Shown here piece by piece: positions 2,356-32,402 of a stretch of DNA of 64,000 nucleotides (positions are counted from its first letter, which is position 1; each line of letters begins with the position of its first letter). Made by a program: the position numbers and the translations under genes. The notes beneath the pieces were generated by a model. That model was given only the letters and a program-made list of their open reading frames with translations, had not been told where the DNA came from and made no database searches. Origin of the DNA: Salipaludibacillus neizhouensis (GTDB taxonomy: Bacteria; Bacillota; Bacilli; Bacillales; Salisediminibacteriaceae); the NCBI RefSeq assembly GCF_002886185.1, contig NZ_KZ614147.1:469187-533186 (forward strand), given 5' to 3'.

Positions 2356-3378
2356 ATGAGTAAATCAAATATTGCAGAATTAAAAAAAGAAATGGCTCCA
2401 TATGAAAAAAACGACACAAGAGCAAGTGTCAAACAAGTAATTAATACGCTAGTACCTTTAGTTATCCTATGGTACTCATCATATTTAAGTATATCTGTAT
2501 CTTATTGGCTGACTATTCCTTTCTTAATCGCCACAGCTGGATTTTTAGTTAGAACGTTTATTATTTTTCATGATTGTTGTCACCAATCGTTTTTCAGGAA
2601 TAAGAAGGCAAATGAAATATTGGGTACGATAACAGGGATATTAACGTTAGTTCCTTATCAACAATGGAAAAATAGTCACAATACGCACCACGCAACAAGC
2701 AGTAATCTTGATAAAAGAGGTACTGGTGACATGTGGCTCCTTACCGTTGATGAATATAAAAATGCTTCTATTGGGACAAAAATCGGTTACAGAATATACC
2801 GTAATCCTATCGTTATGCTAGGAATTGGTCCACTTGCCGTTTTCGCCTTTCAATATCGTTTTAATTCTAAAAAGGCGAGACGTAAAGAGAGAATCAATCT
2901 GTATGTCACCAATTTCTCCATTGTTGCTCTTTATGCACTTTTAAGCTTGTTAGTGGGTTGGCAGACTTTTGTTATGCTTCAGCTTCCGATGCTATTAATT
3001 TCAGGCATGATGGGTATTTGGTTATTTTATGTACAACATCAATTTGAAGATTCTTATTTTGAACATAGTGATGAGTGGAGTTATGTTCAGGCAGCAGTAG
3101 AAGGAAGCTCGTATTATAAGCTTCCGAAAGTATTACAGTGGATCACCGGAAACATCGGTTTTCATCACGTGCATCATTTAAGTCCTAGAGTTCCAAACTA
3201 CAATTTGGAGAAGGCTCATGAATCATCACAGCCACTTCAGAAGGCTACAACAATCACGTTAGCGACAAGTTTCAAATCACTACGATATCGTCTATGGGAT
3301 GAAAATGCGAAAAAGTTCGTCTCGTTTGGAGAAGCAAAACGGATAATAAAGCTTGAAGAGGAGTTAGTAAAGAATTAA
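2356..3378 (+). CDS. des: Acyl-lipid fatty acid desaturase Des
   Basis: Membrane di-iron desaturase that introduces a cis double bond into phospholipid acyl chains, raising membrane fluidity in the cold. The three histidine boxes are present: HDCCH at residues 72-76, HNTHH at 108-112 and HHVHH at 270-274. Hydrophobic segments around 28-70, 88-100 and 180-225 fit the usual four-helix topology. The length of 340 residues is close to Bacillus Des (about 350). Start ATG has a clear AGGAGG eight bases upstream. The next two genes encode the DesK/DesR thermosensor pair, the same arrangement as in Bacillus subtilis, which supports the assignment. Confidence 0.95.
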   Translation: MSKSNIAELKKEMAPYEKNDTRASVKQVINTLVPLVILWYSSYLSISVSYWLTIPFLIATAGFLVRTFIIFHDCCHQSFFRNKKANEILGTITGILTLVPYQQWKNSHNTHHATSSNLDKRGTGDMWLLTVDEYKNASIGTKIGYRIYRNPIVMLGIGPLAVFAFQYRFNSKKARRKERINLYVTNFSIVALYALLSLLVGWQTFVMLQLPMLLISGMMGIWLFYVQHQFEDSYFEHSDEWSYVQAAVEGSSYYKLPKVLQWITGNIGFHHVHHLSPRVPNYNLEKAHESSQPLQKATTITLATSFKSLRYRLWDENAKKFVSFGEAKRIIKLEEELVKN

Positions 3379-8781: not shown

Positions 8782-8904
8782 ATTAATAGCGACAGAGAAC
8801 TGAAATATAGGGATAAATCATTTAAATGGATATAGAGATCTTGATTTTTTAAATTATCGTGGTAAGATTTAAAATAATATTCGAATGAAATTAATACAGA
8901 CATA

Positions 8905-9149
8905 TCAGTGACAAAGAGAGTAGTGATTTGTAAGGGAACAGCGAGTCGGGGACGGTGTAAGCCTGATACTTAGCGAATCATGAAGCGCACTTTGGAGATG
9001 CTTTCTTGAAAACAAAAGTAGGGAAAAGCCGGGGAGGACCTCGTTATCAACGCCAAGTGGTTTCTATAGGATAGAAACAATCAGAGTGGTACCGCGGGAT
9101 AAATTTATAGCTCTCGTCTCTTTATCGTTAAAGAGGCGGGAGTTTTTTG
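8905..9149 (+). ncRNA. T-box leader controlling argS
   Basis: The tRNA-sensing leader senses uncharged tRNA-Arg and allows read-through into argS. Seen directly: the conserved T-box AGAGTGGTACCGCGGG at 9083-9098, a terminator at 9111-9147, and a stem I with GAGTCGGGGACGGTG near 8943. The specifier position before ACTTTGGAG is occupied by CGC (8986-8988), an arginine codon, which fits the downstream gene. The 5' limit is approximate. The upstream AT-rich sequence around 8840-8890 probably holds the promoter, but no clear pair of hexamers stands out. Confidence 0.93.
9111..9147 (+). terminator. Regulated terminator of the argS T-box
   Basis: CTCTCGTCTCTTTA pairs with TAAAGAGGCGGGAG (two wobble pairs) around TCGT and is followed by TTTTTT. 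The T-box sequence just upstream forms the competing antiterminator when uncharged tRNA binds. Confidence 0.9.
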
Positions 9150-30261: not shown

Positions 30262-30294
30262 GGATGTTCAGGATAGATGTCTGAACATCCTTTT
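30262..30294 (+). terminator. Rho-independent terminator after the SDR gene
   Basis: GGATGTTCAG and CTGAACATCC pair perfectly, followed by TTTT. Confidence 0.88.
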
Positions 30295-30398
30295 AAAGAG
30301 AATTTATAAATAAGAAGAAATGAGATCCATTTGACAAAGATTACTCAATCAGATATTGTGACATTAAATCAATATACACGGAAGGGTGAACCAACTAG

Positions 30399-30410
30399 AT
30401 GAAGTACTAA
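30399..30410 (+). CDS. Three-codon leader ORF (Met-Lys-Tyr-stop) of the ABC-F gene
   Basis: ATGAAGTACTAA behind GGAAGGGTG at a spacing of about ten bases. Its stop codon overlaps the first arm of the leader hairpin (30407-30417). A ribosome held there by an antibiotic would block that arm. Very short leader ORFs are known from antibiotic-responsive leaders of ABC-F genes in Listeria and Bacillus. The ORF is too small to prove from sequence alone. Confidence 0.55.
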   Translation: MKY

Positions 30411-30602
30411 TCCTATTTTACGAAAACGAACAAAGGAAGGCATTTTTTAGCAGGAGATATGACTGCTTTTTTGAGATGCTTTCGTTGAGTTTTCAGAATA
30501 GGATTAGAGTTCTATAGTTGTCTTCAAAAGGAGAAGTCTCTTTTTGGTGTACACCTGTATCTATCTCTGCCTCCTATTCTGATGTGACTAGGGGGCATTT
30601 TT
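30399..30602 (+). promoter_or_regulatory. Transcription attenuator in the leader of the Vga-type gene
   Basis: Four segments form two exclusive folds. A (CTAATCCTATT, 30407-30417) pairs perfectly with B (AATAGGATTAG, 30497-30507). B also pairs over 11 bp with C (TCAGAATAGGA 30493-30503 with TCCTATTCTGA 30572-30582). C pairs with D as the terminator (TGCCTCCTA 30568-30576 with TAGGGGGCA 30589-30597, one wobble), followed by T5. With A:B formed the terminator forms; if a stalled ribosome covers A, B can take C and open the gene. The structure is seen in the sequence; the drug response is inference from related genes. Confidence 0.8.
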
Positions 30603-30639
30603 CTGTCCTCGGAACATAACGGTAAATGGGGATGATTAT

Positions 30640-32211
30640 ATGATGTTATTAGAAGCGAATGCGTTAAAGTTATATGTTAAAGATCGTTTACTCATAGATG
30701 TTGATCGGTTAGAAATTCATAAAAAAGACTGTATCGGCTTAGTTGGCAAAAATGGAAGTGGGAAAACCTCGTTATTGAATGTCTTGGGAGGAAAGGAAAT
30801 TCCTGAAAAAGGGAAAGTTACCACAGTTGTAACCTGTGAACTTTTACCGCAGTTGTCAAGAACGGATACAACCAAAAGCGGTGGTGAAGTGACACAAGAT
30901 CACATTGTTGAAGCTCTAGCAAAGGATCCAGAGATCTTATTTGCTGACGAACCAACGACAAATCTGGATACGGATCACATAGAATGGTTGGAAAAGAAAT
31001 TGATGACATGGCAAGGAGCATTCGTAATAGTCTCTCATGATCGAGCATTCCTGGATGCACTTTGCACAACGATATGGGAGATTCATGAGGGAAGTGTGAG
31101 AATATATAAAGGAAATTATTCTGCATATGCCAAACAAAAAGAAGTGGAACTTCATGAAGAGAAAGTTGCGTATGAAAAGTATATAAGAGAGAAAAAGCAG
31201 CTGGAAGAAGCAATGAGATTAAAAGAGAAAAAGGCTGATAGAGCCACAAAAACCACGAATAAAGTAAGTAAATCAGAAGCGAAAATCACTGGAGCTAAGC
31301 CATATTTTGCTAAGAAACAAAAAAAGCTTCAACAAACTGCGAAAGCAATGGAAACCAGATTAGCAAAATTGCAGAAAGTTGAAAAGATCAAAGAGGTTCC
31401 CTCAATCAAGATGAATTTACCGAATGAAGAAACGTTTAAAGGTCGTATTATCCTTCGCGTGAACGATGTACCTGGCATAATAGGCCAGCGTGTTTTATGG
31501 AGAACAGCAACCTTTCATGTTCGTGGTGGAGATAAACTAGCCATTATAGGAGCAAATGGAAGCGGAAAAACCACATTGATTAAAAAAATAGTGGAAGAAG
31601 AGGAAGGTATTACTGTTTCACCCTCGATGAAAACCGGTTATTTTAGTCAGAACTTAACGATATTGGCGAGCGATAAAACGATCCTGGAGAATGTCAGTTG
31701 TACATCCAAACAAAATGAAACATTCATTCGAACGGTGCTTGCCAGACTTTCCTTTTTTAGAGAAGACGTGTATAAACCAATAGAAGTATTAAGTGGTGGG
31801 GAGCGAGTGAAGGTCGCATTAGCGAAGTTATTTTTGAGTGATATTAATACACTCTTATTAGATGAACCAACAAACTTTTTGGATACGGAGGCTGTAGAAG
31901 CCTTGGAATCACTTTTAAAAGAGTATGAGGGAAGCGTGATTTTTGTCTCCCATGACAGGCGCTTCATCGAAAGTGTCGCAACACGAATTTTAGCGATTAA
32001 AAATAAAGAAATAGAACTCTTTGAAGGAACATTTGATCAATATAGCCAGTATGAACCACAAGAAAACAGAAATGTGGAAGAAGACAAACAGCTTCTATTA
32101 GAAACGAAGATATCAGAAGTCCTTAGTCGATTAAGTATCGACCCCTCTGAAGAATTAGAGTTGGAATTTCAGAAACTTTTAGAGAAGAAGAGGAATAGTA
32201 CCAATACTTGA
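30640..32211 (+). CDS. ABC-F ribosome protection ATPase, Vga type
   Basis: Soluble twin ATPase that binds the ribosomal E site and dislodges pleuromutilin, lincosamide and streptogramin A drugs; 523 residues, the size of Vga(A). First nucleotide-binding domain: Walker A GKNGSGKT, unusual short signature region SGGEVTQDHIVEALAKDPEI as in Vga, Walker B LFADEPTTNLD. A long charged interdomain linker (about 170-260) carries the antibiotic-resistance tip (VSKSEAKITGAKPYF). Second domain: GANGSGKT, LSGGERVKV, LLLDEPTNFLD. No membrane segments. Similarity to Vga(A) and Lmo0919 is high from memory. Expression is probably drug-induced through the upstream attenuator. Confidence 0.92.
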   Translation: MMLLEANALKLYVKDRLLIDVDRLEIHKKDCIGLVGKNGSGKTSLLNVLGGKEIPEKGKVTTVVTCELLPQLSRTDTTKSGGEVTQDHIVEALAKDPEILFADEPTTNLDTDHIEWLEKKLMTWQGAFVIVSHDRAFLDALCTTIWEIHEGSVRIYKGNYSAYAKQKEVELHEEKVAYEKYIREKKQLEEAMRLKEKKADRATKTTNKVSKSEAKITGAKPYFAKKQKKLQQTAKAMETRLAKLQKVEKIKEVPSIKMNLPNEETFKGRIILRVNDVPGIIGQRVLWRTATFHVRGGDKLAIIGANGSGKTTLIKKIVEEEEGITVSPSMKTGYFSQNLTILASDKTILENVSCTSKQNETFIRTVLARLSFFREDVYKPIEVLSGGERVKVALAKLFLSDINTLLLDEPTNFLDTEAVEALESLLKEYEGSVIFVSHDRRFIESVATRILAIKNKEIELFEGTFDQYSQYEPQENRNVEEDKQLLLETKISEVLSRLSIDPSEELELEFQKLLEKKRNSTNT

Positions 32212-32239
32212 TAGATGTTGGATATCATTATTTATGTTG

Positions 32240-32286
32240 AAGAGCCTCTCCCCTGTCGTAATCGAAATAGGAGAGGCTCTTTAATA
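32240..32286 (+). terminator. Rho-independent terminator after the ABC-F gene
   Basis: AAGAGCCTCTCC and GGAGAGGCTCTT form a perfect 12-bp stem; a short T run follows. Confidence 0.88.
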
Positions 32287-32402
32287 TTAATTTTTCTCCA
32301 TCTTTTTTATTAATCTTTGTACTTAAATCACGGACAGGCAAATAAGTATTAAGGAAGCGATATTTAATAATGACACCGTACCTAATATATAGGGGGGATT
32401 AG

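Follow-up and report, generated by a model that had tools for sequence, protein, structure and literature searches.

How is the Vga-family gene in the window (the whole stretch of 64,000 nucleotides of Salipaludibacillus neizhouensis DNA that was analysed) controlled, and what does the structured leader in front of it sense? The gene (30640-32211; like all features below on the plus strand) codes for an ABC-F ribosomal protection protein of 523 amino acids, which scored 798.9 bits against NCBIfam NF000170.2 compared to the curated Vga-family cut-off of 725, so that the leader precedes a resistance-type ABC-F gene. In a PDB sequence search, the best match of the protein was 7nhl, a lincosamide-streptogramin A resistance protein, followed by 7nhn, Lmo0919. 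All 60 genomes of relatives contained a match to the gene, with at least 64% identity in 10 of the 59 others and 74% at best. Since the best matches in seven genomes of the same genus, none with a close relative of the gene, showed 33-44% identity compared to 73-74% in two genomes from other families of the order, the gene was probably acquired by transfer or lost from the other genomes of the genus. Terminator-like inverted repeats, which were not reported by a simple consensus terminator scan, are located on both sides of leader plus gene (30262-30290 and approximately 32234-32287), and the gene is therefore probably transcribed by itself. A promoter-like site (TTGACA-17-TATTGT, 30331-30359) has 10 of 12 consensus matches; since the promoter scan found 5 sites and shuffles lead one to expect 6.1, the site is weak evidence by itself. 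Elsewhere, the window carries a T-box leader (8899-9124, 123 bits).

We consider it highly probable (roughly 0.88) that the leader is a ribosome-sensing attenuator of this gene which is relieved by a drug-stalled ribosome. Its 5' part, read directly from the sequence, consists of a Shine-Dalgarno sequence (SD; GGAAGGGTGA, 30380-30389), nearly invariant in relatives, and an upstream open reading frame (uORF), ATG-AAG-TAC-TAA (30399-30410), for Met-Lys-Tyr. The spacer between the two contains the element S (CAACTA, 30392-30397), whose partner S' (TAGTTG, 30515-30520) was identified by covariation and a partner-swap test. Arm A (30407-30417) overlaps codon 3 and the stop codon of the uORF (TAA, 30408-30410). 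Both the inverted-repeat search and the leader alignment gave arms A, B (30493-30507) and C (30572-30582): in the mechanical search, A and 30497-30507 are perfect inverted repeats of 11 nt (100%), and so are 30493-30503 and C. A middle hairpin (30524-30547) in the predicted fold occupies a position equivalent to the SL-2 pause hairpin of vmlR and has a putative role in pausing. The terminator consists of a 9-bp stem between 30568-30576, which overlaps C, and arm D (30589-30597), followed by TTTTT (30598-30602); the stem is based on fold and alignment, in the case of D also on constraint folding. The anti-SD arm E (TGTCCTC, 30604-30610), derived from alignment and constraint folding, can pair either with 30591-30597 of D or with 30628-30633 of F, the SD of the main gene (GGGGATGA, 30628-30635), which was read directly and also found by the latter two approaches. 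Sequence and prediction thus yield a mutually exclusive anti-antiterminator, antiterminator and intrinsic terminator, and a short uORF with its SD lies inside the first hairpin, as in leaders of the vmlR, lmo0919 and cplR kind.

The initial annotation had already named the Met-Lys-Tyr leader ORF with its stop in arm A, the 11-bp A:B hairpin, the 11-bp B:C antiterminator, the C:D terminator with five T and the Vga-type gene. All these parts were confirmed, those of the leader are kept in relatives, and the attenuator reading agrees with the switch that constraint folding predicts. The attribute "complete" was justified for the named parts, but not for the pairing S:S' and a possible SD-sequestering tier, which had been missed; the annotation also lacked the precedents in the literature and the occurrence of the leader in front of other kinds of genes.

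Such a layout is rare by chance. The fold of 30370-30610 has a predicted energy of -83.9 kcal/mol (z -5.8), and none of 200 shuffles was equally stable. Among 3000 dinucleotide shuffles of 30366-30639, 21 contained an 11-bp perfect stem of any kind and none contained two such stems with a common middle arm; shorter stems sharing a middle arm occurred in 1, 16 and 201 shuffles for 9, 8 and 7 bp, respectively. The terminator (30568-30602) was absent from the output of the simple consensus scan, the loop range of which is 3-8 nt.

For the working of the leader, we infer the following course of stalling, termination and read-through, including the inducing drugs and the roles of D:E and E:F. Without drug, a ribosome would start on the three-codon uORF and depart at once; A:B would form, with the SD spacer also paired with S', and C would be left for D. 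RNA polymerase would then halt near 30602, and any read-through RNA would keep the SD of the gene paired to E. A pleuromutilin, lincosamide or streptogramin A, which block the first peptide bonds, would hold the ribosome at the start of the uORF, with its footprint covering the spacer S and A. B would pair with C before D is transcribed and the terminator would fail, after which D would pair with E and the SD of the gene would at least partly be freed. By analogy, the gene is probably switched on only upon stalling of the ribosome by drug; the drug-induced read-through is assumed from vmlR and cplR, for which others have demonstrated it.

Constraint folding predicts the proposed A:B/B:C/C:D switch. 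For free RNA up to 30660, the pairing probabilities were 0.998 for A:B, 0.968 for C:D and 0.878 for E:F. With 30386-30415 masked as ribosome footprint, the respective values were 0.80 for B:C, 0.13 for C:D, 0.78 for D:E and 0.17 for E:F. When the masked RNA was ended at 30583-30594, B:C reached 0.95-0.96; at ends 30598-30606 the equilibrium again favoured C:D, and B:C was back at 30612, once D:E can form. Since C:D is favoured at ends 30598-30606, read-through would depend on B:C forming first and holding for about ten bases.

The conservation of these elements was assessed in 86 aligned leaders, comprising the window, 80 named relatives (the best 80 of 231; mostly Bacillus-like genera, Sporolactobacillus and Paenibacillus) and five plasmid records. 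A narrower first pattern (400 nt) recovered the three-codon uORF in 79 of 81 leaders, the two missed having a TGA stop and a longer leader, respectively; with both allowed, the pattern was present in all 86 Vga-type leaders. The 79 peptides were MKY (32), MKF (16), MKN (10), MWN (7) and eleven others (14). In 75 of 81 leaders, the uORF stop is preceded by a C that can pair with a G of B. Standard pairs, counted over alignment cells with letters, amounted to 980/1052 for A:B, 873/891 for B:C, 659/728 for C:D, 488/548 for D:E and 464/490 for E:F compared to 176/891 for the control A:C. Since A and B barely vary, as reflected by the column-shuffle comparison (0.932 vs 0.930 for A:B and 0.980 vs 0.974 for B:C), the counts for A:B and B:C tell little beyond conservation. 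In the leader of Paenibacillus sp. D2_2 (L075), additional sequence separates the E region from the SD of the gene, and the uORF lies 432 nt upstream of the gene. More distant ABC-F genes of the same genus and relatives (L017-L024) have leader uORFs for MKQ, MKL or MKY and a terminator stem that seems to contain the SD.

The first hairpin as a whole covaries in 32 leaders. The structure used was the window's own fold and the measures hence lean to it, a bias on which slid and shuffled controls bear. Of 1202 cells, 89.0% were paired (slid controls 33-53%), 46 cells were altered on both sides (slid controls 18-31) and the covariation score was 0.189 (slid controls 0.054-0.087), in each case with 0 of 500 shuffles as high; over five measures, 0-1 of 500 shuffles were as high on each. 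The number of pairs with two-sided changes, 15, was not above that of the slid controls (11-16). In helix 1 (S:S'), 78.9% of the cells were paired, with two-sided changes in five of six pairs. The swap test on S:S' (184 leaders, 160 of them unique; 8 of the 86 aligned leaders and 12 of the 118 pattern-search loci had dropped out with an SD, uORF or B that did not fit the pattern) gave a mean best run of 5.64 for own partners compared to 4.57 for swapped (4.77 at the top of 20 swaps) and 4.39 for shuffled ones, based on the unique leaders. Since S pairs with a stretch 3' of B, the uORF is placed inside the first hairpin. RNAalifold did not return A:B on the 32-leader alignment, but just a 5-pair SD:A helix; a model built on this structure (R1), from which A:B is missing, was set aside and used in no search.

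In the 3' part of the leader, positions 30593 (D), 30608 (E) and 30630 (F) change in concert among the aligned leaders. The combinations at 30593/30608 were A-T (36), G-C (31), G-T (8) and A-C (4), and those at 30608/30630 were C-G (36), T-A (31), T-G (12) and C-A (4). On the protein tree, from which L075 and the Listeria record L115 were left out, the three positions changed 13, 11 and 10 times, respectively. A tree-aware test, with few supported pairs, gave 2.3 same and 0.1 opposite of 7 for D-E, 1.4 and 0.4 of 4 for E-F, and 1.0 and 0.6 of 7 for D-F, and unrelated columns among those listed gave values of similar size. These data suggest a second tier in which E pairs either with the SD of the gene or with D; we regard this tier as just likely, since too few independent pairs are supported on the tree.

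If this tier were dominant, the leader would act by translation attenuation, with E:F versus D:E hiding or freeing the SD of the gene, and the terminator would matter little. The predicted fall of E:F from 0.88 in free RNA to 0.12-0.17 under masked footprints and its frequent pairing among the aligned leaders speak for such a control, as does cplR, whose reporter stayed tightly regulated by SD control alone according to the available part of PMC10201436. We nevertheless consider it improbable as the main control: stem and T tract are kept in the aligned leaders, the tree-aware test does not confirm E:F covariation, and the mean unpaired probability of the SD, 0.15 in free RNA, climbs just to 0.19, 0.43 and 0.42 under three masks. 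In addition, loss of the terminator made vmlR expression constitutive, whereas changes in SL-4 had a moderate effect, as far as the accessible text of PMC9226507 goes. Two other explanations are far less probable still. Being long and structured, with terminator and antiterminator, the leader could also be a riboswitch that binds a drug or metabolite directly, the uORF being incidental. However, all 86 leaders retain an SD, a start codon, three codons and a stop codon, the first hairpin encloses the uORF as it does in vmlR, and no riboswitch is among the leader's Rfam matches, which all stay below threshold.

Attenuators of biosynthesis genes use codons of the amino acid concerned, and MKY contains one Lys and one Tyr codon, so that the uORF might sense the supply of either amino acid. 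Such a starvation attenuator appears as remote as the riboswitch, given that codons 2 and 3 vary among the peptides listed above and that the gene encodes a resistance factor and not a biosynthetic enzyme. A reading as an arrest peptide of the erm/msr/hflXr type, in which a longer leader peptide causes arrest through a sequence-specific motif such as RLR, was rejected, as the uORF has three codons, no RLR and variable codons 2-3. Ribosome-sensing attenuation relieved by drug-induced stalling thus remains the preferred reading.

Is this leader confined to Vga-family genes? We searched for the leader pattern AGGGTGA-N5..12-ATG-6nt-TAATYCTRT with the reversed pattern as control. In three overlapping genome samples, the pattern matched 89 of 397 genomes from the order, 41 of 398 from the class and 5 of 398 from the phylum, and one of the last five lies outside the class; the reversed control gave 0. 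The source genome contains one match. The downstream gene was defined as the first ORF that starts within 900 nt and codes for 120 aa or more. Among 116 distinct places, this gene was an ABC-F gene in 74 and a member of an MFS family of approximately 410 aa in 28 (L139, L141-L143, L152-L160, L162-L166, L174, L178, L179, L217-L220, L231, L232, L251), the rest including four Vat, two Tet-like MFS, one Cfr and one Vgb-like lyase; L252, unassigned in this count, reads by eye as a 75th ABC-F gene. Some ABC-F cases have a short first ORF (L144, L192, L243, L246). The window's own leader and the known ABC-F leaders L002 and L006 were left out of the 91 places of the order, and G127, G156, G231 and G376 lie outside the classification. 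Single cases were nucleotidyltransferase-like, RibD-like, SDR, DinB-like and an IS200 ORF; because of the first-ORF rule, these may not be the controlled genes.

The one member of the MFS family scanned matched Pfam MFS_1 and MFS_3, and from its leader we predict that this uncharacterised family is drug-inducible. Three of the four Vat proteins (L167, L233, L234, L238) scored 345, 338 and 320 bits compared to a cut-off of 300, and L234 was assigned via 64% identity to L167. The Cfr rRNA methyltransferase (L237) reached 604 bits compared to a cut-off of 468, and the Vgb-like lyase (L236) 389 bits, short of the 600 required for the Vgb(B) allele. Over 248 nt, the Vga leader L077 shares 81% identity with the leader of the Vat gene L167. 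A covariance model built from Vga leaders alone (R2) matched all 30 non-ABC-F leaders supplied (30 of 41 such places) with E-values of at most 1.6e-4, figures that are flattered by the choice of leaders through a pattern contained in the model and by rough E-values; 6 of 7 distant ABC-F leaders among L017-L024 were matched weakly. R2 also matched the opposite strand of several leaders, including that of the window (E 1.5e-6), since the hairpin is nearly symmetrical. Three pattern matches in viral contigs were dismissed as chance, with no fitting leader by eye; R2 did not match L147 and L148, and gave E 0.52 for L149. In L150, a leader (approximately 2637-2735, minus strand) lies upstream of a 370-aa nucleotidyltransferase-like ORF that stayed below all curated cut-offs of NCBIfam and Pfam; this ORF is a candidate for an unrecognised resistance gene. 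In L146, a leader with two B-like elements (approximately 1501-1850) adjoins the IS200-type ORF and is perhaps orphan or doubled.

We think it likely that one homologous three-codon-uORF RNA switch serves as a portable cassette in Bacilli in front of at least five unrelated kinds of resistance genes, namely ABC-F (Vga and VmlR types), MFS, Vat, Cfr and Vgb-like lyase, with rli53 and ncr1575 as branches. In the titles and abstract beginnings of a literature set with few subscription papers, we recognised no description of a single leader common to these families. The locus itself is a well-conserved, complete new case among the ABC-F attenuators, with a possible two-tier control of termination and SD access; the portability across gene families is the more interesting part. 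If genes for target protection, drug acetylation, rRNA methylation, lyase and efflux indeed share one leader, the ribosome would be a general drug sensor for unrelated defences. The leader could then serve as a marker for resistance genes that have gone unrecognised, such as the MFS family at 28 of the 116 places: an uncharacterised gene preceded by it would be predicted to confer resistance and to be induced by drugs that act at the peptidyl-transferase centre.

How does the leader compare to known systems? In Rfam, no family reached its threshold with the window leader: RF01481 (rli53) gave 19.1 of 70 bits (model 1-173 of 173, E 0.14) and RF02452 (ncr1575), listed as a Bacillus sRNA, 23.5 of 60 bits (model 1-212 of 212, E 0.25); ncr1575 had no match in the source genome at E 0.001. 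Other leaders matched ncr1575 below threshold, i.e. those of Vat L233 (48.4 bits), MFS L152 (40.1) and the Vgb-like L236 (33.9). The family had a match in 88 of 249 genomes of the order, in 51 above threshold, and among 14 control genomes in B. subtilis alone. All of its best 30 loci (L255-L284) are followed by an ABC-F-like ORF, 28 of which are approximately 30-33% and two (L267, L279) 23-24% identical to that of the window, and the Vga-leader model matched 23 of the 30 at the leader (E up to 0.012). In the four loci printed, uORFs read by eye were ATGATTAAC-TAA in two, like the vmlR uORF, ATGAAGTAC-TAA in one and ATGATTGAC-TAA in one; the automatic uORF pattern fitted one of the 30. The vmlR-type leaders among the four resemble that of the window in the letters around the uORF, and ncr1575 may well be the vmlR-type leader, judging from these results.

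According to the available portions of PMC9226507, B. subtilis vmlR has a three-codon uORF (MIN) in a bulge of the first hairpin, an antiterminator, an intrinsic terminator and an SD-sequestering hairpin; the uORF is described as lying inside the first hairpin, and mutation of its SD or start codon virtually eliminated expression. The window differs in its gene, Vga-family instead of VmlR, and its uORF, MKY instead of MIN. Listeria rli53 is the leader of lmo0919 (PMC11550727, in the part available) and, like that of the window, precedes a Vga-type ABC-F gene with a three-codon uORF, MKF in L115. This record scores 214.6 bits as rli53, unlike the window leader, which stays far below the gathering score of 70, and is itself matched weakly by the Vga-leader model (25.3 bits, E 0.0045). 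The leaders of staphylococcal vga(A) and vga(C), matched by this model with 105 and 96 bits, have the layout of the window with a uORF MIN in vga(A) and MKY in vga(C), but are plasmid-borne. Published uORFs further include MK[L/Q] for VmlR2 and MAGN for LsaA, and the ABC-F genes vgaA, vgaL/lmo0919, msrD, vmlR and lmrC are described as attenuation-controlled, both as given in the accessible parts of the literature. In C. difficile cplR, a tripeptide uORF (MRI) is likewise combined with terminator and SD control; its terminator stem itself contains the SD (PMC10201436, available text), whereas in the window a separate E arm would hold it. The locus, itself new, thus joins the leaders of B. subtilis vmlR, Listeria lmo0919 and C. 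difficile cplR as a member of a kind already published.
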